64,000 nt of DNA from Massilia sp. R2A-15 (GTDB lineage: Bacteria; Pseudomonadota; Gammaproteobacteria; Burkholderiales; Burkholderiaceae_D), in NCBI RefSeq assembly GCF_030704305.1, contig NZ_CP131935.1:1364001-1428000 (forward strand), read 5' to 3'. The notes below the pieces were generated by a model. That model was not told the DNA's origin. It ran no database searches and saw nothing but the letters and a program-made list of their open reading frames with translations. Position numbers and translations under genes: made by a program. Below are positions 6,971-18,020 of this stretch, piece by piece (position 1 is the stretch's first letter; each line of letters starts with the position of its first letter).

Positions 6971-7150
6971 AGCTTCCAGGGTTTCCAAGGTCGTCGCTGG
7001 CAAAGGACAGCGTGCCAAACTTTGGCCTGGGGCGCCCTTAATCTGCATCAAATTCGCGTCAATGAGCTGAATAAACTGGTCGCGCCTCGCTCGCGCACCT
7101 CATCTATTGAAGAAAGGGAATCATCCGGCCCGCTTACCGTAAAATGGCTT

Positions 7151-8569
7151 ATGACCCGCGACTCCGATCCCCTTGCCCCCACTTTCGCCGCGCAGCGCGC
7201 CGCGTCCCGCGCACTCGTTCCCGCACCATGGGCCGTGCGGGCCGACCGCCTGCGGCGCCTGCGCCAACTGCTGCTCGACTATCGTGGCGACCTGGCCGCC
7301 GCCGTCAACGCCGATTTCGGCCAGCGCTCGCGCCACGAGACCGAACTGCTCGAAATTAATCCCCTGATCGACGCCATCAACCATTCGCTGCGCCATGGGC
7401 AGTCGTGGATGGGCGCGCGCCGGCGCGCGGTCGGCTACAAGTACTGGCCCGGAAAGGCGTCGCTGGAGCCCCAGCCGCTGGGGGTGTGCGGGATCGTGGT
7501 GCCGTGGAACTACCCGCTCGGACTGTCGGTCGGGCCGCTCAATTCGGCGCTGGTGGCGGGCAACCGCGCGATGGTCAAGATGTCCGAACTGTCGCCGCAC
7601 CTGGGCGAGCTGATGGCCCGCCTGGTCGCCGCCAGCTTCGCCGAAGACGAGCTGCGGGTGTTCAACGGCGACGCCGATGTCGCGCGCCGCTTCTGCGCGC
7701 TGCCGTTCGACCACTTGCTGTTTACCGGATCGACCGCGGTGGGGCGCGACGTGATGCGGGCCGCCAGCGAGCACCTGACGCCCGTGACGCTCGAGCTGGG
7801 CGGAAAGTCGCCGGCGATCGTCGGTCCCGGCCGCATGCCGGACGCCAGCTTCGACCGGCTGGTGCAGCGCCTGGTGATCGGCAAGACCCTGAACGCGGGC
7901 CAGACCTGCATCGCGCCGGACTACGCCTTCGTGCCGCGCGCGCGACTGGTGCAGTTCACCGAGGCGGCGCGCCGCGCGGCCTCCGGCTTTTATCCAGGCG
8001 GCGCCACGCGCGATTACACCAGCATCGTGTCGGCGCGCCACTTCGAGCGGCTGCAGGCGCTGCTTGACGACGCACTGGCGCGCGGCGCCAGCGCCACCGC
8101 GCTGACCGACATGCACAGCGACGCCAACCGGCGCTTCTTTGCGCCGGTCCTGCTGTGCGATTGCGCCCCGGACAGCCGCGTGCTGGAAGAAGAGATCTTC
8201 GGTCCGATCCTGCCGGTGATCGCCTACGACGACCTGGACGAGGCGCTGGCCTGGATCAACGCGCGTCCGCGGCCGCTGGCGCTGTACCTGTTCGAGTCCG
8301 ATCCGGCCATCATCCGGCGCGTGGTGGACGGCACGGTGTCGGGCGGCGTGACGGTCAACGACACCCTGCTGCACATGGCGCAGGACAGCCTGCCGTTCGG
8401 CGGCGTCGGCGAATCGGGCATGGGCAGCTATCACGGCAAGGCCGGCTTCGACACCTTCAGCCACGCCAAACCCGTGTTCCGCCAGGGCAGCTTCAGCCTG
8501 GTGCGCTGGCTGTACCCGCCGTTCGGCCGGTTCGCCGAGCGCGCCATGCGCATGCCGCCGCCGCGCTGA
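7151..8569 (+). CDS. Coniferyl-aldehyde-dehydrogenase-like aldehyde dehydrogenase
   Basis: NAD(P)-dependent oxidation of an aldehyde to its acid. The 472-residue product is a full ALDH of the short (about 470 residue) coniferyl/fatty aldehyde group: VVPWNYPL near 117-123, FTGS at 191-194, catalytic Glu215 in LELGGKSP, nucleophile Cys253 in NAGQTCIAPDY, and PFGGVGESGMG near the C terminus. The ATG at 7151 fits homolog length. No Shine-Dalgarno precedes it, but TAAAAT stands 5 bases upstream, so the message may be leaderless or nearly so. It converges with the lipase that ends the neutral-lipid operon, so a fatty aldehyde is a plausible substrate; coniferyl aldehyde is the alternative. Confidence 0.88.
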   Translation: MTRDSDPLAPTFAAQRAASRALVPAPWAVRADRLRRLRQLLLDYRGDLAAAVNADFGQRSRHETELLEINPLIDAINHSLRHGQSWMGARRRAVGYKYWPGKASLEPQPLGVCGIVVPWNYPLGLSVGPLNSALVAGNRAMVKMSELSPHLGELMARLVAASFAEDELRVFNGDADVARRFCALPFDHLLFTGSTAVGRDVMRAASEHLTPVTLELGGKSPAIVGPGRMPDASFDRLVQRLVIGKTLNAGQTCIAPDYAFVPRARLVQFTEAARRAASGFYPGGATRDYTSIVSARHFERLQALLDDALARGASATALTDMHSDANRRFFAPVLLCDCAPDSRVLEEEIFGPILPVIAYDDLDEALAWINARPRPLALYLFESDPAIIRRVVDGTVSGGVTVNDTLLHMAQDSLPFGGVGESGMGSYHGKAGFDTFSHAKPVFRQGSFSLVRWLYPPFGRFAERAMRMPPPR

Positions 8570-8571
8570 TC

Positions 8572-9825
8572 TCAGCGCCGGCCCGGCCGCCGCCCCAGCC
8601 AGTGGCGCAGCTGCTGGTAGACCTCAAGGCGGCTGAGCAGGTCGAGATGATGGATGCCGAAGCCGATCCACTGGTGCGACGTGGGGAAGGCCAGGGTGCG
8701 CGCCGGATCGTCGTGGCGGCCCAGCGCCGTGTCCAGTGGCACCAGCCCGTCTCCCAGCAGCCGGTCGCGCAGGTCGCCCTGGCGCCGCCCCGTCGTACCG
8801 GCGATCGTGTAGCAGCGCACGCCGCGCGGCAGCGGCAGCGGCTGCGGCAGGTCGCCGCCGTGGCGGAAACGGTCGCGTCCGCGCCAGTCCTCGTCAACCA
8901 GGTTGCCGTAGCGCAGGTCGGTGATGCCGGCGCTGCGCAGCTCGCCCAGCCGGGCAAAGGGCGCCGTCAGGGTGCTGCGGCCCAGCACCGCGGTCAGCCA
9001 GTTGCCGTGGCGTTCGAGCGGCGCGCCGTGGTGCGGGGTGCCGAGGAACACCAGGTGGCGCAGCTGCGCGCGCCAGCGATGGCCGTCCTGTTCGGCGTAG
9101 TGGCAGGCGCTGCGCGCCACCAGCCCGCCCATGCTGTGGGCGAGGATGGCGATTTCCTCGATGTCTTCCGGCCAGGCGGCGACCAGTTCGTCGAGCAGGG
9201 CGGCCAGCTCGCGGCCGTTGCGCGAGATGTGGCGCCCGCTGTTGTAGTGCAGGTAGAGCGCGGTGTAACCCAGGTCGCGCGCCAGCGCCGCGCCGTGGTC
9301 GTGGTGGCTGGTGCGGCGCCACTGCAGGTCGCAGCGGCACAGGCCGTGCACCAGGATCAGTACTTTGGGGCCGGCGCCGGGAAGCGCCGCCAGCGCCTCG
9401 GGAGTGAGCGCCAGCGCCTTGCCTTGCGTGCGCAGGCGCATGGGGATCGCCAGCGGATTGCCGGCGCGCGCCAGCAGGTCGCCAAACAAGCCGTTGAGCG
9501 CGGCCAGCACCGCCTCGCGCTGCGCCGTCGAACCGCGCTGGGCCGGCGCGGGGGCGAGTTGCGCGTCGATCCAGCGGCCGGTCAAGGCGATCGTCAGCTT
9601 GGCGCGGCGAAACGCGACGCCGGCGATGCCGCCGGCGCCGGGCGGCGCGAGCGGCTTGCCCAGCAGCTTGAGGTGCACCACTTCGACCTGGTCGACCAGC
9701 ACCTCGATCGCCAGCAGCAGCAGGCGCCCGGCGCCGTGCAGGTCGGCCGGATGGATGTGGCGGGCCGACGCTTCAGGCGATTTCTTGGCGGGCGCGCTCA
9801 ACGTCGAGCCTTTCCATGGCGTCAT
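8572..9825 (-). CDS. Alpha/beta-hydrolase, lipase/esterase-like
   Basis: Predicted serine hydrolase of 417 residues. The N-terminal 150 residues form a divergent region of unknown role (amphipathic, LLLLAIEVLVDQVEVVHLKLLG). The hydrolase core begins at LILVHG (oxyanion loop, His160-Gly161); the nucleophile elbow is AHSMGG with Ser231, and FLGTPHHGAP is typical of PGAP1/LipA-like lipases. There is no secretion signal, so it probably acts on intracellular lipid. It is the last gene of the operon with wax ester synthase, FadD and phasin and overlaps the TPR gene by 53 bases, so hydrolysis of stored ester is the favoured role. A polyhydroxyalkanoate depolymerase-like role is possible. Confidence 0.8.
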   Translation of the reverse strand: MTPWKGSTLSAPAKKSPEASARHIHPADLHGAGRLLLLAIEVLVDQVEVVHLKLLGKPLAPPGAGGIAGVAFRRAKLTIALTGRWIDAQLAPAPAQRGSTAQREAVLAALNGLFGDLLARAGNPLAIPMRLRTQGKALALTPEALAALPGAGPKVLILVHGLCRCDLQWRRTSHHDHGAALARDLGYTALYLHYNSGRHISRNGRELAALLDELVAAWPEDIEEIAILAHSMGGLVARSACHYAEQDGHRWRAQLRHLVFLGTPHHGAPLERHGNWLTAVLGRSTLTAPFARLGELRSAGITDLRYGNLVDEDWRGRDRFRHGGDLPQPLPLPRGVRCYTIAGTTGRRQGDLRDRLLGDGLVPLDTALGRHDDPARTLAFPTSHQWIGFGIHHLDLLSRLEVYQQLRHWLGRRPGRR

Positions 9826-10540
9826 GCGGTTCGCTCGCTGCGGCCTGTTCGCACAGGGCCAGCGCTTCGCCGGCCTTGGCGCGGCCGTCGAGCATGACCA
9901 TGCCGCGCGCGTACTCGATGCGCGCGATCGCCGAGCCGGGATTGAGCTCGAGCGCCTCGCGGAAGTGGCGCAGCGCCGCGTCGCGGCTGGCGCCGTAGGT
10001 CAGGCTGGCCACCAGGGCGCCGACCTTGTCGATGATTTCGGCGTGATACACCCCCAGCGCGATGTGCGCGTCGGCGTGGCGCGGCGCGAGGTGCAGCGCG
10101 GTGTCCAGGCTCGCCTTGACCTTGCCGGCGACGCCTTGCGCCAGCGCCTTGAGCACGGAGACGTCCTGGGCGTGGCGGCCCAGCGCGTAGGCGTGCCAGT
10201 AGAAGCCTGCCGCGCTGGCCGGCTGCTCGCGCTGCTGCCGCTCGCAGCGTTCGGCCACTTCGAGCAGCCGCGCGCCCTTGTCCGCTGCGCCGGCCAGGTA
10301 GACGGCGTGCATGCAGGCGGCCTTGTTGGCCACGGAATAGCCGGCCAGGCCTGCCGCCATCCCGGCGTGCGCCGCCTGCTCGAACCGCCCGGCGTGAAAG
10401 TCGATCCAGGCGGCCACCAGCGCGGCGCTGCGCGGCCACGGTTCGACGTCGCCCGCATGCAGTGCCGGCCAAGCCTTCTTCAAGGCCGCGCCCGTGTATT
10501 CAAAGTCGGCGCTGGGGTAGGGGAAGGCCTTCCATGGCAT
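9773..10540 (-). CDS. Tetratricopeptide-repeat-like protein of unknown function
   Basis: A 255-residue cytoplasmic protein, mostly helical and Ala-rich. At least one clear TPR-like unit is seen near the C terminus (DAALRHFREALELNPGS, then ARIEYARGMVMLDG), with weaker units before it (GFYWHAYALGRHAQD, HADAHIALGVYHAEIIDK). No enzyme motif is visible. The start has a GGAG site six bases upstream. It sits between the phasin and lipase genes and overlaps the lipase start, so it may serve as a scaffold for lipid-body proteins; that is inference from position only. Confidence 0.7.
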   Translation of the reverse strand: MPWKAFPYPSADFEYTGAALKKAWPALHAGDVEPWPRSAALVAAWIDFHAGRFEQAAHAGMAAGLAGYSVANKAACMHAVYLAGAADKGARLLEVAERCERQQREQPASAAGFYWHAYALGRHAQDVSVLKALAQGVAGKVKASLDTALHLAPRHADAHIALGVYHAEIIDKVGALVASLTYGASRDAALRHFREALELNPGSAIARIEYARGMVMLDGRAKAGEALALCEQAAASEPHDAMERLDVERARQEIA

Positions 10541-10572
10541 GGCATGCTCCGGCCCGCGGCGATCCCCGGCGC

Positions 10573-11118
10573 TCAGTGGTGGCGCGCCGCGGCCTTGGCC
10601 TGCCGCTTCGGCGCCGCGCGTACCGGCGCCTTGATCGGCACGTCCTTCAGCGCGGGCTTGGCGCTGGCGGCCGGCTTGGCCGCCGCGGTGCGCCGGGCCG
10701 GGGCCGGGGCGGGCGATGCCGACGCGGCCACCTGCGCCTTCAGTTCGGCCAACTCTCGGCGCAAGGCATCGAGCTCATCGTGCGAAGGCACGCCCAGCGC
10801 GCTCATCGAACGCGCCACGCGGTCCTGGAACAGCTTCTCGATCTTGTCCCACGATCCGCTGGCCTGGCGGCCGACGCTTTCGGCCAGCCGGTTGGCGCGC
10901 TCGGCCACGCCTTGCACCTTGTCGCCGGCCATTTTTTGCGTCAGCTGGTGCAGGTCCAGCCCCTCGCGCACCAGGGAGTCGAACAGTTCGCCGCCTTCGT
11001 GCTGGGCGCGGGCGAAGGCGCCCAGGCCCGCCTGCCAGATCTGCTGCGCCGAGCCGACCACCGCATCGACCATCGCATGCTGCTCCGCGGCCGCCATTTC
11101 CTTGAGTTTCTTGACCAT
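10573..11118 (-). CDS. Phasin family protein (PhaI/PhaF type)
   Basis: Granule-surface protein. The 181-residue product has an amphipathic helical N-terminal phasin domain (about 1-115; IWQAGLGAFARAQHEGGELFDSLVREG is the family hallmark), a short coiled coil (DELDALRRELAELKAQV) and a basic Ala/Pro/Lys tail like the histone H1-like tail of PhaF. The ATG at 11118 has GGGGA five bases upstream; an ATG four codons earlier (11130) is possible. Phasins normally coat polyhydroxyalkanoate granules, but no PHA synthase is near; the neighbours are wax ester synthase, FadD and lipase, so it may coat neutral-lipid droplets. Confidence 0.88.
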   Translation of the reverse strand: MVKKLKEMAAAEQHAMVDAVVGSAQQIWQAGLGAFARAQHEGGELFDSLVREGLDLHQLTQKMAGDKVQGVAERANRLAESVGRQASGSWDKIEKLFQDRVARSMSALGVPSHDELDALRRELAELKAQVAASASPAPAPARRTAAAKPAASAKPALKDVPIKAPVRAAPKRQAKAAARHH

Positions 11119-11158
11119 GTCATTCCCCATTCCCGTTCATGTGCGCTGCCGCCCGGCT

Positions 11159-12856
11159 TCAGCCGGCCGCCACCGGCCCGGCGCTGCGTTGCGCCTCTTC
11201 CTCCATTACCACTCTCCGCAAGATCTTGCCGATGTTTGACTTCGGCAGCGGCTCGTCGCGAAACACCACGTACTTCGGCACCTTGTAGGCGCTCAGCGAT
11301 TTCCTGCAATAGGCCAGCAGCGCTTCGGCCGTCAGCTCCGGGTCGCGCCGCACCACGACGATCTTCACCACTTCGTCGGAGTGCTCGTCCGGCGCACGGA
11401 TCGCCGCCACTTCGAACACGCCAGGATGCAGCCCGACCACCTGTTCCACTTCGTTCGGATAGACCTTGAACCCGGACACGACGATCATGTCCTTCTTGCG
11501 GTCGATCAGCCTGACGTAGCCGCGTTCGTCGATCACGCCGATGTCGCCGGTGCGCAGCCAGCCATCGGCGGTGAGCGCGCGCTCGGTCTCATCGGGCATG
11601 TTCCAGTAGCCTTGCATCACTTGCGGACCGCGCACGCAGATTTCGCCGGTTTCGCCGGGCCCCAGTTCGCGGTCGGCCTCATCGAAAATCGCCACTTCGG
11701 TCGAGGGCAGCGGCAGCCCGACGGCGCCCGAGAACTGCGCCAGGTTGGGCGGGTTGGCGCACACGATGGGCGAGGTTTCCGTCAGGCCGTAGCCTTCGAG
11801 CAGCGGCACGCCGAATACCGCCTGCCAGCGCTCGGCCACCGCGCGCTGCACCGCCATGCCGCCGGCCACCGCCAGTTTCATGCCGGCCGGATGCACCTGG
11901 CTGATTTCGGGCGCTTCCAGCAGCGCGTTGAACAAGGTGTTGACGCCGATGATGACGTTGAACGGCGTGTGCCGCAGCAGCTTGATCAGGCCGCCGATGT
12001 CGCGCGGGTCGGTGACCAGCACGATGTGCGCGCCCAGCCGGCAGAAGGTGAGCGTGGCGGTGAGCGCGAACACGTGGTAAAGGGGCAGCGGGATGATCGC
12101 CGTCTCCTTCCCTTCTTCCAGGAAGCCCTGCACCCAGGCGGCGGTCTGCTCGACGTTCGCCAGCACATTGCCGTGCGTGAGGATGGCGCCTTTTGGCACT
12201 CCCGTGGTGCCGCCGGTGTATTGCAGGAACGCGATGTCGGCCGCGTTCAGGTGCACGTCGACCAGCGCAAGGTCCTTGCCGGCCTTGAGCGCGTCGTGCA
12301 GCGAGACCGCGCCGCCGATGTGCCATGCCGGAACCATGTGGCGCACATGCTTGACGACCAGGTCCACGATCTGCGCCTTCGGAAAGGGCAGCAGGTCGCC
12401 GACCGCGGTGGTGATGACGTGATGGACCGGCGTGAGCGGCAGCACCTGCTCCAGCGTGTGCGCGAAATTGTCGAGAACGACGATTGCGCGCGCGCCGGAA
12501 TCGGCCAGCTGGTGCTGCAGCTCGCGCGGCGTGTACTGGGGATTGACGTTGACGACGGTGCAGCCGGCCTGGAAGGCGCCGAACAGGGCCACCGGGTATT
12601 GCAGCAGGTTGGGCAGCATCAGTGCGATGCGGTCGCCGCGGCCCAGGCCCGCCACTTGCTGCAGGTAGGCGGCGAACTGGGCGGACAGGCGGGCCAGCTC
12701 GTGCCAGCTCAGGGTGGCGCCCTGGTTGCTGAACGCGGGCTGGGCGCCGTAGCGGTCGGCGATCCAGGCGAGCAAAGCGTTGAACGAGGCGAACTTGCCG
12801 ACATCGACATCGGACGGGATGCCGGGGGGGTAACTACTGAGCCAGTGTCGTTGCAT
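11159..12856 (-). CDS. fadD: Long-chain fatty acid-CoA ligase
   Basis: Activates free fatty acid to acyl-CoA with ATP and CoA (adenylate-forming enzyme). The 565-residue product shows the P-loop YTGGTTGVPKGA, the GYGLTETSP motif, GWLRTGDIG and the C-terminal catalytic Lys region (PKSNIGKILRR). The start at 12856 (MQRHWLSSYPPGIP) matches the E. coli FadD N terminus and has GAGG six bases upstream; an open frame reaches 35 codons further up but lacks support. It lies 115 bases after the wax ester synthase and 40 before the phasin, in the same direction, so it likely supplies acyl-CoA to the synthase or recycles acids freed by the lipase. Confidence 0.93.
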   Translation of the reverse strand: MQRHWLSSYPPGIPSDVDVGKFASFNALLAWIADRYGAQPAFSNQGATLSWHELARLSAQFAAYLQQVAGLGRGDRIALMLPNLLQYPVALFGAFQAGCTVVNVNPQYTPRELQHQLADSGARAIVVLDNFAHTLEQVLPLTPVHHVITTAVGDLLPFPKAQIVDLVVKHVRHMVPAWHIGGAVSLHDALKAGKDLALVDVHLNAADIAFLQYTGGTTGVPKGAILTHGNVLANVEQTAAWVQGFLEEGKETAIIPLPLYHVFALTATLTFCRLGAHIVLVTDPRDIGGLIKLLRHTPFNVIIGVNTLFNALLEAPEISQVHPAGMKLAVAGGMAVQRAVAERWQAVFGVPLLEGYGLTETSPIVCANPPNLAQFSGAVGLPLPSTEVAIFDEADRELGPGETGEICVRGPQVMQGYWNMPDETERALTADGWLRTGDIGVIDERGYVRLIDRKKDMIVVSGFKVYPNEVEQVVGLHPGVFEVAAIRAPDEHSDEVVKIVVVRRDPELTAEALLAYCRKSLSAYKVPKYVVFRDEPLPKSNIGKILRRVVMEEEAQRSAGPVAAG

Positions 12857-12971
12857 GCCGGGCCTCATTGTGCGAAGGCAGGCGGGCCTGACAATGCCGC
12901 GCGTATTGGCGGCGCGAGCAGGCCCGTTTATAGATACTACGGCGGCAAGGGTAAAGCGCATTTGATGTGCA

Positions 12972-14378
12972 TCAAGTTGAGACGGGCCAAGGCAGCATCA
13001 GCGCGTGCAGCAGCAAGGCCTCGAACTCCGCGGCGTAGCGCGGCGGCAGATCGGCCGGGTCGGCGATGCGGCGCGCGTCGGCGATGACGCCGAAACTGAC
13101 CTGGCCGTCGTAGCTGAGGATGCTCACGCCCAGCCCGATGCCGCCCGACTGCGGCACCCAGAACATCTGCCGCGCGATGCGCTGGCCGGCAAGGTAGCGC
13201 GGCTGCTCCGCGCCGCGCACGTTGGTGACGATCACGCTGGCGTTGGCGGCCAGCGTCTCGAGCACGCGTTCCTTTAAAAATTCCGGCGCCACGCCCATGC
13301 CGGCGAGGATGCCGAGGGCGACCAGCGGCTGCTGCGAGTGCTTCAGTTCAGCCATGCGGCGCCGCACCTCGGCCACCCGTTCCAGCGGATCGGCGATTCC
13401 GACGGGCAGGGCGAGGAAAACCATGCCGAAGTGGTTGCCCAGTTCGGTCACGGGGCCGGGCGGGCGCAGGTTGACCGGCACCAGCGCGCGCAGTTCGACG
13501 CCGTCCACCGGCTCGCCGCGGTCCTGCATCCAGGAGCGCAGGGCGCCGGCGATGCAGGCGACCAGCAGGTCGTTGACGCTGCATCCGAGCACGCCGCAGA
13601 CGGCCTTGACGTCGTCGAGCGCGAGCGGCTCGGCCCACGCCACCCGCTTCGTCACGCCCAGTTCGCCCTTCAGGCTGGTCGCCGAATCGGGCGTCATGTT
13701 GGCGATCACGCCGGCCTGGTGCAGCAGGTCGGCCGCGCCGGCGGCGGCCGCGAGGGCGCTGCGCGGCGAGGACAGCAGGGCCGCGCCCGTGCCGGCCGCG
13801 CCCAGCGTCGTGCGCAGCGCGTCGCCCGCCGTTTCGGTGACGACGCCGAAGATGCGCTCCCACGCGCTGCGCGGCGGCGCCGGCGCCAGGTCGGCCAGCG
13901 GCGCGCGCGGATGCGCCGGATCGAGATCGGTGATGGCGTCGACCACGTGCAGCAGGGCGAAGCCGTCGCCGTAGCAGTGGTGGATGCGCAGGATCAGCGC
14001 GCTGGCGCGGGCGCCCTGGGCGAGGTGGAACTGCCACATCGGCTTGCGCGGGTCGAGCGCGGTGCTGGCCAGGTCGCCCGCCAGTTCCTCCAGCGCGCCG
14101 CGGCCGGCCGGCAGGGCGACGCGGCGCACGTGCCACTCCAGGTCGAACTGCGGATCGTTTTCCCAGTACGGCGCCTCGGCCGGGCCGGCCACGCGCTGGC
14201 GGAAGCGGTGGAAGCACAGCATGCGCGCCGCGATCACCTCGCGCAGCGCGCGCAGGTCGAGGCGGCGCTCGAACAGCATCATCCCGCAGATCATCATCAG
14301 GTTGGTGGGCCGGTCCATGCGCAGCCAGGCCGCGTCGATCACCGACATCGGCTCGCGCGGCGCGAACGATTGGGACAT
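12972..14378 (-). CDS. Wax ester synthase / diacylglycerol acyltransferase (WES/DGAT)
   Basis: Esterifies acyl-CoA with a fatty alcohol (wax) or diacylglycerol (triacylglycerol). The 468-residue product carries the family catalytic motif HHxxxDG as HHCYGDG at 133-139 and a C-terminal WES_acyltransf domain with NVRG (VIVTNVRGAEQPRYLAGQ). The family is usually 450-500 residues. The start was set at 14378 because its ATG shares a base with the stop of the upstream reductase (TGATG), indicating coupling; the frame stays open upstream only as the shadow of that gene. Being coupled to a fatty acyl-CoA reductase makes wax ester the first-choice product. Confidence 0.93.
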   Translation of the reverse strand: MSQSFAPREPMSVIDAAWLRMDRPTNLMMICGMMLFERRLDLRALREVIAARMLCFHRFRQRVAGPAEAPYWENDPQFDLEWHVRRVALPAGRGALEELAGDLASTALDPRKPMWQFHLAQGARASALILRIHHCYGDGFALLHVVDAITDLDPAHPRAPLADLAPAPPRSAWERIFGVVTETAGDALRTTLGAAGTGAALLSSPRSALAAAAGAADLLHQAGVIANMTPDSATSLKGELGVTKRVAWAEPLALDDVKAVCGVLGCSVNDLLVACIAGALRSWMQDRGEPVDGVELRALVPVNLRPPGPVTELGNHFGMVFLALPVGIADPLERVAEVRRRMAELKHSQQPLVALGILAGMGVAPEFLKERVLETLAANASVIVTNVRGAEQPRYLAGQRIARQMFWVPQSGGIGLGVSILSYDGQVSFGVIADARRIADPADLPPRYAAEFEALLLHALMLPWPVST

Positions 14379-16357
14379 CAGAGGTGGACGCCGTGCAGCA
14401 GGTGCTGCATGGCGCGCAGTTCGGGTGAGGCCGGCGGCGCGCCCCTGGCATCGGCGCCCTCCGGCTCGGCCGACAGGCGGTAGGCGGTGTTCATGATGAT
14501 CTGGGCCATGTGCGGCGCCGCCAGCTGCATGCCCAGGCCGAACATGCCGACGTCGGTGGCGATGCGCGCCGGCGTGTTGACGATAGCCTGCACCACCAGC
14601 CCGGCGGCGGCGTCGGGCGTGAGCGCCGGCGCGTCGCGGTAGGCCTTGGTGGGGGCGATCATCGGCGTGCGCACCAGCGGCATGTTGATGGTGGTGAAGG
14701 CGACGCCCAGGTCGGCGTATTCGGCGGCGGCGCAGTAGGACCACGCTTCCAGGGCGGCCTTGGAGGCGACGTAGCCGGAAAAGCGCGGCGCGTTGGTCAG
14801 CACGCCGATTGAGGAGATGTTGACGACGTGGCCGCTGCGCTGCGCCGCCATGGCAGGCAGCAGTCCCAGGGTGACGCGCAGGGCGCCGAAATAATTAAGC
14901 TGCATCATGCGCTCGAAATCGTGCAGGCGGTCGTAGCTTTCCTCGACCGCGCGCCGGATCGAGCGGCCGGCGTTGTTGACCAGTACATCCACGCGGCCGT
15001 GCTCGGCCAGCAGCACCTGCACGAAGCGCAAGCTGTCGGCCGTGTCGGACAGGTCGGCGCGATAGGTGGCCACATCGAAGCCGCGCGCCTGGATCTGGGC
15101 GCGCGCCGCCGCCAGCTTCGCTTCGTCGCGCCCGCAGATCAGGGTGGTGGCGCCGGCTTCGGCGAGCCGCTGCGCGGTGGCCAGGCCGATGCCGGACGAT
15201 CCGCCGGTCACCAGCACGACCTTGCCGGCCACGCGCGCGCGCAGGCTGCGCTCGATGTGCAGCGCAGGGTCGAGATGGCGCTCCCAGTAGTCCCAGACTG
15301 GCGCGGCGTACTGTTCCAGCGGCGGGCAGGCGATGCCGCTGCCTTCCAGCGCCGCCGCGGCCGCGCGGTTGTCGAAGCGTGTCGGCCAGTTCACCAGCTG
15401 CAGGATCCCTTCGGGCAGGCCGAGGTCTTCCATCAGCGCCTGGTGCAGCCGGCGCACCGGCTGCAGCGCGCTGATGGCGTTGCGCAGCCATGCCGGCAGC
15501 AGGCCGAGCAGGGCGGCGTTGACGCGCAGGCGCATCGGCGGGGCATGCGCGGCACGGGCGAACAGGTCGAGTACCTCGCCCACGCGGTGCGAGACCGGAT
15601 CGGTCAGGTGGAAGCACTGGCCGTCCAGCCCGGGCCGGTGCGCGATGAAGGCGAGCGCATCGACGACGTAATCGACCGGCACGATGTTGACGCGTCCGCC
15701 CTCGATGCCGATGGCGGGCATCCACGGCGGCAGCAGGCCGCGGATGCGCTGGATCAGCTTGAAAAAGTAGTAGGGACCGTCCGGCTTGTCGGCCTCCCCG
15801 CTGCGGGAGTCGCCCATGACCAGGCCGGGCCGGTACACGCGCCACGGCACGGCGCAGCGCTCGCGCACGATTTTTTCGCCTTCGTGCTTGGTGGCGAAAT
15901 ACGGATGCCACAGCTGTTCGGCCTCGCCGAACATGTCCTCGCGAAAAGTGCCTTCGTACAGGCCGGCGGCGGCCACGGAGCTGATGTGGTGGAAGCATCC
16001 GGCGCCCAGCGCTGCGGCCAGGTCTACCGCGTTGCCGGTGCCCTCGACGTTGGCCGCGACCTGCTGTTCGGCGCCGGCGCGCAGATCGTACACGGCGGCC
16101 AGGTGGAAGAAGTGATCGACCTGGCCGGCCAGCGCCGCGCGTTCGGCGTCGGATACGCCGAGCAGGGGCTGCAGCAGGTCGCCGAACACCGGGGTCGCGC
16201 GCGCCGAGCCGGCGCCCCAGAAGGCCTGCGCCGACGCCAGTTTGCCGGCGCTGCCCTCGCGCGCCAGAAACCACACCGTGTTGCCGGGCGCGGCAAGCAG
16301 CTTGCGCACCAGGCGCTTGCCGATGAAACCGGTCGCTCCCGTGACGAAGTAGCGCAT
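14378..16357 (-). CDS. Fatty acyl-CoA reductase, two-domain SDR (Maqu_2507-like)
   Basis: Four-electron reduction of fatty acyl-CoA (or acyl-ACP) to fatty alcohol with NADPH. The 659-residue product matches in length and layout the 661-residue Marinobacter enzyme Maqu_2507. An N-terminal extended SDR has GATGFIG (7-13) and YFATK as the YxxxK site. A linker follows (WDYWERHLDP), then a C-terminal classical SDR with TGGSSGIG, NNAG and a YVASK active site. Motifs such as REDMFGEAE, DGPYYFFKLIQRIR and INMPLVRTPMIAPTK are closely shared with it, from memory of that sequence. AGGAAG precedes the start. It sits between an AlkJ-like dehydrogenase and the wax ester synthase, giving alcohol for esterification. 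Confidence 0.92.
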   Translation of the reverse strand: MRYFVTGATGFIGKRLVRKLLAAPGNTVWFLAREGSAGKLASAQAFWGAGSARATPVFGDLLQPLLGVSDAERAALAGQVDHFFHLAAVYDLRAGAEQQVAANVEGTGNAVDLAAALGAGCFHHISSVAAAGLYEGTFREDMFGEAEQLWHPYFATKHEGEKIVRERCAVPWRVYRPGLVMGDSRSGEADKPDGPYYFFKLIQRIRGLLPPWMPAIGIEGGRVNIVPVDYVVDALAFIAHRPGLDGQCFHLTDPVSHRVGEVLDLFARAAHAPPMRLRVNAALLGLLPAWLRNAISALQPVRRLHQALMEDLGLPEGILQLVNWPTRFDNRAAAAALEGSGIACPPLEQYAAPVWDYWERHLDPALHIERSLRARVAGKVVLVTGGSSGIGLATAQRLAEAGATTLICGRDEAKLAAARAQIQARGFDVATYRADLSDTADSLRFVQVLLAEHGRVDVLVNNAGRSIRRAVEESYDRLHDFERMMQLNYFGALRVTLGLLPAMAAQRSGHVVNISSIGVLTNAPRFSGYVASKAALEAWSYCAAAEYADLGVAFTTINMPLVRTPMIAPTKAYRDAPALTPDAAAGLVVQAIVNTPARIATDVGMFGLGMQLAAPHMAQIIMNTAYRLSAEPEGADARGAPPASPELRAMQHLLHGVHL

Positions 16358-16373
16358 GATGGATCTTCCTCGG

Positions 16374-18020
16374 TCAGTGCTGGGGCGCCGCCACGGCCGC
16401 GTCCTGGTGCGCCGCGCCCAGGGTGGAGAGGATCATGTCGGCGCCTTTTTCGGCAATCATCATGGTCGGCGCGTTGGTGTTGCCGGCAATGAGGGTCGGC
16501 ATGATGGAGGCATCGATGACGCGCAGGCCTTCGACGCCGTGGACCTTGAGCCGGTGGTCCACCACCGCCATCGGGTCGGCGCCCATCTTGCAGGTGCCGA
16601 CCGGGTGGTAGATGGTTTCGGCCTTCCGCCGGATGAACGCTTCGATTTCGGCGTCGCTCTGGACTTCGCTGCCGGGAAAAATCTCCGCGCCGCGGAACGG
16701 ATCGAAGGGCGCTGCGGCCAGCACCCGGCGCGCCGCGCGCACGCAGTCGATCATCGCCTCCAGGTCGGCCCGCTCGGACAGGTAGTTCGGATCGATCAAA
16801 GGCGCTGCGGCCGGATCGGCGCTGCGCAGCGTGATGCGGCCGCGGCTGGCGGGGCGCAGCGGGCAGGCGTGCAGCGCGTAGCCGTGGCCCCACAGCGTGA
16901 AAGCGGCGCTGCGCAGGGTGCGCGCGTGGCCGTCGAGGCGCGCCGGGGTGAAATGAAACTGGATGTCGGGCAGCTCCTGCTGCGCTCGGCTCTTGACGAA
17001 GCCGCCCGCCTCGGCCGAATTACTGGTCAACGCGCCGGAGCGGTGCACGATGTAGTCGTAGAGGCGCTTTACCTGGGCCGGCAGGGTGCGCAGCGACAGG
17101 CCGAGCGACACCGGCAGGCGGCAGCGCTGCACCACCAGCACGTCGAGGTGGTCCTGCAGGTTGCGGCCGACGCCGGGCAGTGCGTGGCGCAGCGCGATGC
17201 CGTGGCGCGCCAGTTCCTGCGGCTCGCCGATCCCGGAGAGCATCAGCAACTGCGGGGAATTGATGGCGCCTCCGGCCAGCAGCACTTCGCGGCTGGCGGC
17301 GATGCTGGCCACCGTGCCGCCGCGCCGGTATGCGACGCCGGTGGCGCGCTTGCCGTCGAACAGCACGCGCTCGGCCAGCGCGCCGGTCAGCACCGTCAGG
17401 TTGGGGCGGGCGAGGGCGGGATGCAGGTAAGCGCGCGCGGCGCTCCAGCGTTCGCCGTTCTTCTGGGTGACTTCGTAGCAGTTCACGCCCTCCTGTTCGG
17501 GGCCGTTGAAATCGGCGTTGAACGGGAAGCCGGCCTGCATGGCGGCGTCAATGAACGCCCGAGAGAGCACGTTGGGCGAGCGCAGCGGCGCCACGTTGAG
17601 CGGGCCGCCGCTGCCGTGCAGGGGCGAGGCGCCGTCCTCGTGGTGCTCGCTGCGCAGGAACAGCGGCAGCACGTCGTCGAAACCCCAGCCGGGATTGCCC
17701 AGCGCGGCCCAGTGGTCGTAGTCGGCGCGGTTGCCGCGCGTGTAGATCATTGCGTTGGTGGAGCTGCTGCCGCCCAGCGTTTTGCCGCGCGGCCAGAACA
17801 GGCGGCGACCGCCCAGTTGCTGCTGCGGCTCAGTGAAGTACTGCCAATTGAGCTTCTTGCTCATCATCAGGCCGACGATGCCAAGCGGCACCCGGATGAA
17901 CGGGCTGCTGTCCGCGGGGCCGGCTTCGAGCAGGCACACGCGCACGGCCGGATCGGCCGAGAGCCGGTTGGCCAGCACGCAACCGGCGGAACCGCCCCCC
18001 ACGATGATGTAGTCAAACAT
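16374..18020 (-). CDS. GMC-family FAD-dependent alcohol dehydrogenase (AlkJ-like)
   Basis: FAD enzyme that oxidises an alcohol to an aldehyde, passing electrons probably to quinone. The 548-residue product has the Rossmann motif GGGSAG (8-13), the GMC signature [18 protein letters not shown], and the C-terminal catalytic region [12 protein letters not shown] ... [12 protein letters not shown]. Its N-terminal third ([17 protein letters not shown]) resembles Pseudomonas AlkJ, a medium-chain alcohol dehydrogenase; choline dehydrogenase (BetA) is the other known relative, but no bet genes are near. A GGAGA site precedes the start. First gene of the seven-gene lipid operon, so oxidation of fatty alcohol released from wax is the likely job. 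Confidence 0.88.

Follow-up and report, generated by a model that had tools for sequence, protein, structure and literature searches.

A probable wax-ester storage-and-recycling locus with an FNR-type site in Massilia sp. R2A-15

Wax esters in bacteria are generally treated as stores for times of nitrogen limitation. Here, a gene cluster likely to serve their synthesis and recycling is described in a stretch of 64,000 nucleotides (the window; positions 1,364,001 to 1,428,000 of contig NZ_CP131935.1) from the 5.03 Mb, single-contig genome of Massilia sp. R2A-15, a strain presumably of the same family as Herbaspirillum seropedicae. The cluster encodes a GMC-family alcohol dehydrogenase (ADH), a two-domain fatty acyl-CoA reductase (FAR), a wax ester synthase/diacylglycerol acyltransferase (WS/DGAT; WS in gene orders), a FadD-type ligase, a phasin, a TPR protein, a hydrolase and an aldehyde dehydrogenase. 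A described counterpart of the reductase is Marinobacter maFACR, which we take to be Maqu_2507. The C-terminal domain of maFACR forms the aldehyde and the N-terminal domain the alcohol, and its mutation-tested residues are S126/Y152/K156 and S515/Y527/K532 (PMC7573125). Betaproteobacterial WS/DGAT genes were found near a Maqu_2507-like reductase (58.8–59.2%), on one scaffold with a putative phasin, and an alpha/beta hydrolase or lipase lies near WS/DGAT on gammaproteobacterial scaffolds (PMC10351704). The genes under Fnr control in Herbaspirillum include fixNOP, aer, phaC1 and one for a phasin (PMC5934665), and in a triple fnr mutant polyhydroxybutyrate (PHB) was down by about half under low aeration in late-log phase, but not in mid-log phase or under high aeration (PMC5862806). 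WS/DGAT genes of Mycobacterium smegmatis go up under reductive stress, as described in connection with the redox regulator WhiB3 (PMC8440910).

Compared with these systems, the reductase of the window has the domain order of maFACR and both short-chain dehydrogenase active sites at matching positions (PMC7573125), whereas its gene overlaps WS/DGAT by one base, common to the reductase stop codon and the WS/DGAT start, and is packed with genes for hydrolysis, recycling, a phasin and a TPR protein. In the section of PMC10351704 on the betaproteobacterial scaffolds, no GMC dehydrogenase, aldehyde dehydrogenase, hydrolase, TPR protein or Fnr control is reported. H. seropedicae offers a parallel in that Fnr governs genes for its storage polymer together with a phasin, and storage is tied to redox balance (PMC5934665, PMC5862806), but its polymer is PHB, not wax ester, and WS/DGAT is unmentioned in the parts covered. 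In M. smegmatis, neutral-lipid synthesis genes likewise rise when reductant cannot be disposed of (PMC8440910), but the pathway is that of triacylglycerol, under another regulator and in another phylum. Wax-ester fermentation under oxygen lack is described for Euglena, but this is a eukaryote, and a bacterial use is proposed here. A search of open-licence titles and abstracts found the full cluster, recycling oxidases included, nowhere described, and a search of open-licence PMC papers for Fnr or Anr and wax esters gave no link between the two, with passages of PMC5648520, PMC7572474, PMC8440910 and PMC9755347 covered; in two of these four, FNR stands for a research fund. Fnr-controlled wax ester would be a step from the Herbaspirillum and M. 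smegmatis precedents.

The cluster is likely to be a dedicated wax-ester storage-and-recycling locus of two transcription units with a link to Fnr. A preliminary description had listed seven same-strand genes with short gaps or overlaps and a converging aldehyde dehydrogenase; all eight genes are present in the claimed order, family models uphold their identities and the coordinates of the open reading frames confirm the arrangement. WS/DGAT and the PF05597 phasin are single copies in the genome, and among named proteins the nearest are those of Telluria and Massilia. By PF03007, PF06974 and HHxxxDG, the window protein is a member of the WS/DGAT family (391 bits against TIGR02946, cut-off 310). 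In the 80 loci kept as the best of 206 relatives from a scan of species genomes, the motif is present in all 81 hits of at least 400 aa, two of which contain a stop. The reductase, with NAD_binding_4, a short-chain dehydrogenase domain and an active site in each, is by these features a two-domain alcohol-forming enzyme (904 bits against NF005539, cut-off 549). It carries SSV at 126, YFATK at 153, NISS at 513 and YVASK at 529, so that the candidate Ser/Tyr/Lys residues are 126, 153 and 157 in the first domain and about 515, 529 and 533 in the second; YxxxK, as a lenient pattern, occurs in both domains in 43/43 hits of at least 600 aa.

The remaining proteins are classified with differing precision. 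The phasin belongs by PF05597 to the PhaF/PhaI type (129.8 bits, cut-off 28.8; 99.2 against TIGR01837, cut-off 94.7), and the FadD-type ligase reaches 752 bits with its best NCBIfam model, under that model's cut-off of 869. The aldehyde dehydrogenase (269 bits against PF00171) falls among class 3 enzymes by sequence: of its solved relatives, a steroid aldehyde dehydrogenase scores best (333 bits), followed by fatty aldehyde dehydrogenase 4qgk (314) and class 3 enzymes such as 1ad3 (297), and GQTC marks the catalytic Cys as present. For the hydrolase, PF07819 (PGAP1; 37 bits, cut-off 24.3) and DUF7379 (39 bits, cut-off 33) were matched, together with a nucleophile elbow that recurs in 11/13 relatives of at least 380 aa; no NCBIfam model matched and esterase BlEst2 matched weakly, making it a loosely classified candidate wax-ester lipase. 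The GMC protein scores 669.5 bits against NF002550 (cut-off 605; choline dehydrogenase subfamily PRK02106), and the earlier label "AlkJ-like" is a subfamily call only, with plasmid relatives below 60% identity. It would oxidise the fatty alcohol freed from wax.

Conservation of the gene order, whose absence from every relative was to count against the preliminary description, was found at other chromosomal sites in Massilia and Noviherbaspirillum, so that the description stands up to this check. The close loci are 21 with a WS identity of at least 54%, plus the window. Massilia agrisoli (L061) and Noviherbaspirillum suwonense (L066) share the complete set of eight genes with the window; the order recurs without TPR in N. 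pedocola (L070), without either outer oxidase in M. agilis and M. solisilvae (L056, L057), and in M. phyllostachyos (L074), whose contig has only 362 nt ahead of the reductase match and thus leaves ADH out of view. FAR-WS-fadD-phasin stand in this order in the window and eight loci (L056, L057, L060, L061, L066, L067, L070, L074), whereas Massilia terrae L052 (L052:10001-11311, L003) is shortened to ADH-FAR-WS, its WS match being interrupted by a stop. When 25 open reading frames from the first 36 kb of the window were compared with L056, L061, L066, L070 and L074, all five matched the cluster. Of the flank genes of the window, a ppsA-like one near L066 was the sole match at 38% identity or more, in loci extending just a few kb past the cluster. 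Because cluster genes match in five loci and window flanks do not, the unit is taken to be the cluster including the aldehyde dehydrogenase. In an empty-site test, the aldolase adjoining the cluster was found in 2/4 same-genus relatives (G003, 53%; G004, 83%), with no further window neighbours beside it in the stretches taken.

The probable oxygen link comes from a putative regulatory site absent from the preliminary description. The gap between WS and fadD holds TTGATGCACATCAA, an exact match to TTGAT-N4-ATCAA, the FNR/ANR consensus; it is the sole exact one in the 64 kb, with 0.02 expected from shuffles. Because the box was first noticed in the window, the relatives serve as its test. With up to one mismatch, it lies within 200 nt before fadD in 11/15 close loci (10/14 without the window), whereas shuffled fadD upstream regions gave a mean of 0.14, never more than 2 in 500, so that 0/500 reached 11; the spacer letters differ between loci. 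TTGAT ranks first of the 1024 five-letter palindromic half-sites (11 against 4 for the next), and other upstream regions have the box in 10/79. Within 250 nt of any cluster gene, it was found in 19/22 close and 3/59 distant loci (best other half-site, 10), and in 16 of the 19 groups obtained when WS was clustered at 85% identity. It precedes WS (L062, L063, L065, L068, L111), FAR (L060, L067) or ADH (L052) in other relatives, at 110–202 nt upstream of WS in the Rugamonas loci (L062, L063, L111, L068). Around the close WS/DGAT of these Rugamonas loci, about 10 kb were free of matches to FAR, phasin and TPR, and fadD adjoins WS in L068.

In class II Fnr promoters, the -10 element is expected 35–37 nt from the box start. 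At this distance, the best TATAAT match averaged 3.25/6 over 12 boxes, and among 15 offset windows of 3 nt the match peaked at 34–36 (3.08; others 1.75–2.75); the FNR-like site before the aldehyde dehydrogenase has no good -10 at class II spacing. The genome itself contains 16 exact boxes and 0 for a reversed control pattern, with one box 55 nt before ccoN and others beside acetate kinase and chemotaxis-receptor genes. About 4 kb from ccoN, it encodes an Fnr protein over the curated cut-off with CSACSMHQLC (CxxCx5C). By the conserved box and the Fnr in the genome, the cluster is a putative member of the Fnr regulon, and the locus is probably oxygen-linked. A low-oxygen gene region at C1:1524477-1555412 (L179, L180) of the same genome holds five exact boxes, ccoN, acetate kinase and Fnr in about 31 kb. 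Other regulators were considered as well. TetR control in cis was rejected, as distant loci carry TetR (PF13972) beside TPR and the window cluster does not; PsrA-like sites were not found, and no palindrome common to the upstream regions compared was seen by eye.

A number of observations weigh against a dedicated, Fnr-linked storage locus. The box was sought after being seen, and the limits of 350, 250 and 200 nt were set after a first look; 56/59 distant loci lack it, L070 has the cluster without it, and in the window the 350 nt ahead of ADH, FAR and WS yielded no copy, even with one mismatch allowed. Because the box faces fadD-phasin-TPR-hydrolase and none precedes the other three, Fnr control of the committed enzymes lacks support in the window. 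The hydrolase in the box-led unit, as read from the gene order, sits badly with pure storage induction, synthesis and degradation together risk a futile cycle, and the WS/DGAT product may also be triacylglycerol. The order is broken in several close loci, WS being apart from a FAR-fadD-phasin block in L058, L064 and L065 and FAR not beside WS in L055, L062, L063, L068, L069 and L111 (L053, L054 and L059 are short contigs). Lastly, pairwise WS divergence correlates weakly with that of fadD (0.35) and phasin (0.37), so the cluster genes have not all travelled together; with TPR and the hydrolase it correlates strongly (0.85 each).

The rival explanations overlap, and their odds do not sum to one. 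Best placed among them, though unlikely, is a wax or neutral-lipid locus without oxygen control, in which the palindrome is due to chance or unrelated and nitrogen limitation alone sets expression. The box-free ADH-FAR-WS unit of the window and L070 would agree with it, and Fnr binding at the box is a prediction. It accounts poorly for a box conserved in 11/15 loci with differing spacers, unequalled in 500 shuffles and first among the half-sites, for a -10 match peaking at class II spacing, and for a genome with Fnr and a ccoN box.

Co-occurrence of the reductase with WS/DGAT bears on the product. WS/DGAT matches were obtained in 35/245 family genomes, with no match in the four other same-genus genomes searched. 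The reductase, counted at E 1e-120 or better, is found in 26/245, all 26 among the 35 with WS/DGAT, leaving nine WS genomes without such a reductase (Fisher 9e-28, kinship ignored). A triacylglycerol or mixed neutral-lipid store, with a reductase meeting another need for fatty alcohol, is somewhat less likely still than a locus without oxygen control; WS/DGAT enzymes are commonly bifunctional, but the 26/26 co-occurrence and the overlap of the reductase stop with the WS/DGAT start speak against this reading.

The outer oxidases mark opposite ends of the cluster. The window, L061, L066 and L070 have both, L056 and L057 have neither, and the truncated L052 has ADH alone. Eight distant loci (L073, L083, L086, L090, L113, L114, L127, L129) carry the same reductase a few kb from a different GMC oxidoreductase (assigned by Pfam in L083) and its small neighbouring gene, together with an aldehyde dehydrogenase 50–56% like that of the window, partly cut by the locus end. 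This parallel neighbourhood of FAR, GMC and aldehyde dehydrogenase is the best evidence for counting alcohol re-oxidation as part of the system. The preliminary description is supported in its logic, by which wax is made, coated, hydrolysed and recycled; its claim of a stand-alone storage system goes further than this support. With 4/8 genes catabolic (hydrolase, GMC dehydrogenase, aldehyde dehydrogenase, FadD) and the hydrolase inside the unit with the Fnr box, one could also think of a locus mainly for degradation of exogenous wax, alcohol or alkane-derived lipid, in which WS and FAR just buffer surplus acyl groups. This is improbable, since L056 and L057 lose the outer oxidases and keep FAR-WS-fadD-phasin-TPR-hydrolase, and since the reductase occurs only with WS/DGAT in the 245 genomes. 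A hydrocarbon-making locus with the GMC protein as its fatty acid photodecarboxylase is scarcely credible and was rejected, as a full-length match to a solved photodecarboxylase (365 bits) is offset by Ala and His aligned with the key residues, which we take to be Cys432 and Arg451 (chain positions 356 and 375, offset 76, by count), and by the retained GMC motif HPxGTCKMG.

For the storage-and-recycling locus, the earlier claim of a seven-gene operon holds as to the conserved order, but a single transcript is doubtful given an opposite-strand gene in five relatives and the gap between WS and fadD. Intergenic distances are +16 nt for ADH-FAR, -1 for FAR-WS, +115 for WS-fadD, +28 for fadD-phasin, +32 for phasin-TPR and -53 for TPR-hydrolase, and the aldehyde dehydrogenase and hydrolase genes converge with stops 2 nt apart. 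In L056, L057, L061, L066 and L074, about 1 kb carrying an opposite-strand gene separates WS from fadD; in the window this gene is missing, yet the 115-nt gap remains where the other five are at most 32 nt, and L070, also without the gene, has a gap of 107 nt. Because of the opposite-strand gene in relatives and the window gap with its FNR-type site, the cluster is divided into ADH-FAR-WS and fadD-phasin-TPR-hydrolase, and it probably forms two transcription units, not one operon. A sigma-70 scan was uninformative, with 2 sites against 1.2 expected, and a terminator scan returned 3 against 7.2. For fadD, further ATG codons lie at 12961 and 12868, and the FadD-model match starts at the Met at 12856. 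The features are collected in Table 1.

Table 1. Positions of the cluster genes and putative regulatory sites in the window
Feature	Position	Strand	Remarks
GMC-family FAD alcohol dehydrogenase/oxidase (ADH), 548 aa	16374..18020	-	PF00732 + PF05199; HPVGTCKMG
Two-domain alcohol-forming fatty acyl-CoA reductase (FAR), 659 aa	14378..16357	-	PF07993 + PF00106
Wax ester synthase/diacylglycerol acyltransferase (WS/DGAT), 468 aa	12972..14378	-	PF03007 + PF06974; HHCYGDG
FadD-type long-chain acyl-CoA synthetase	11159..12856	-	PF00501 + PF13193
PhaF/PhaI-type phasin, basic Ala/Pro-rich tail	10573..11130	-	PF05597
TPR protein, 255 aa, candidate lipid carrier	9773..10540	-	predicted structure matches
Alpha/beta hydrolase, candidate wax-ester lipase	8572..9825	-	PF07819, DUF7379, AHSMGG
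Class-3-like aldehyde dehydrogenase, convergent	about 7151..8569, start inferred	+	PF00171; GQTC
FNR/ANR-type box TTGAT-N4-ATCAA	12962..12975	.	spans WS/DGAT stop codon, 119 nt before fadD
TAGTAT, possible -10 element	12934..12939	-	class II spacing from FNR box; weak consensus, 4/6
Weaker FNR-like site TTAATCTGCATCAA, one mismatch	7038..7051	+	precedes aldehyde dehydrogenase

Beside WS/DGAT, several relatives encode an orphan helical protein of about 230 aa (L061:11471-12160, minus strand; L035:8306-9013, plus strand; L056, L057, L066, L074 and others). In four tested, no Pfam family exceeded its cut-off, and a word-based search of 5.8 billion proteins returned 18 relatives. Eight helices are predicted, several of them amphipathic (pLDDT, the per-residue model confidence, 75), with structural matches mainly to designed helical repeats, and the protein is a candidate droplet coat. 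In the window it is absent between WS and fadD.

The TPR protein was modelled by AlphaFold2 with high confidence (pLDDT 97, pTM 0.93), and the top structural matches are the TPAT transporter 8g52, the bacterial sterol transporter 7t1s, which we take to be BstC, TatT 3u64 and PTPIP51 7cc7. The fold is alike at 15–20% identity, and the match covers the whole domain and stands above most other TPR proteins, 2pl2 tying within 0.1 of the lowest carrier. Thus, the protein appears closest to lipid-carrier-type TPR folds, with lipid carrier as a candidate role. Unlike the named carriers, it is probably cytosolic, because its first 40 residues do not resemble a signal peptide by eye. Against PF21033 (RMD1-3/PTPIP51), it scores 18.9 bits, under the cut-off of 26.7, with 7/50 relatives matching at E 0.01 or less; a newer version of this model is precomputed for TPR relatives, among the matches listed. 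A role as a wax-only gene was rejected, as matches turned up in 58/245 genomes, among them the four of the same genus that lack WS; the statistics use 54, with four weak matches (best E 6.6e-5 to 1e-3) set aside.

TPR genes also occur in other settings. L083, L086, L088, L108 and other distant loci, from Rhodocyclales and others, combine a TetR regulator, a patatin-like phospholipase, a phasin and TPR, with FAR in many of them and a GMC oxidoreductase and aldehyde dehydrogenase in some. A second TPR gene adjoins TetR in the Massilia sp. R2A-15 genome (L142:6256-7700 = C1:1088255-1089699, about C1:1.089 Mb), and one same-genus and one other-genus genome without WS (L143, L144) keep phasin-TetR-TPR, possibly as remnants of an older locus.

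In the mechanism that we infer for the storage-and-recycling locus, the FadD ligase would supply part of the acyl-CoA, the two-domain reductase would turn acyl-CoA into fatty alcohol in two NADPH steps, and WS/DGAT would join this alcohol to a second acyl-CoA. The PhaF-type phasin would coat the droplet, and the TPR protein may carry or tether a hydrophobic ligand in the cytosol. In the other direction, the wax ester would be split by the hydrolase, its alcohol would be returned to fatty acid by the GMC and class-3-like aldehyde dehydrogenases, and FadD would re-activate the acid recovered. As both directions at once would make a futile cycle, regulation matters. The fadD-phasin-TPR-hydrolase unit would have its own promoter with an Fnr site, and its expression would go up as oxygen falls. 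Wax formation would store carbon and consume NADPH, as is thought for Fnr-dependent PHB in Herbaspirillum, and the oxidases would recover the electrons once oxygen returns. Extended to a bacterial wax-ester fermentation in Oxalobacteraceae, where Fnr switches the locus on at low oxygen, two NADPH per alcohol are laid down in a phasin-coated droplet, TPR transfers lipid between membrane and droplet and the oxidases give the electrons back, the proposal becomes tentative, and such a fermentation is possible rather than probable.

A low-oxygen-type sequence in the middle of the cluster suggests that bacteria may store wax when short of air. A compact locus with an FNR-type box in most close relatives raises the question of whether bacteria use wax as an electron sink at low oxygen, the lipid-carrier-shaped protein that of lipid exchange between a bacterial neutral-lipid droplet and the membrane, and synthesis and breakdown in one locus that of how a futile cycle is avoided. 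The locus makes these three questions testable in a small system.

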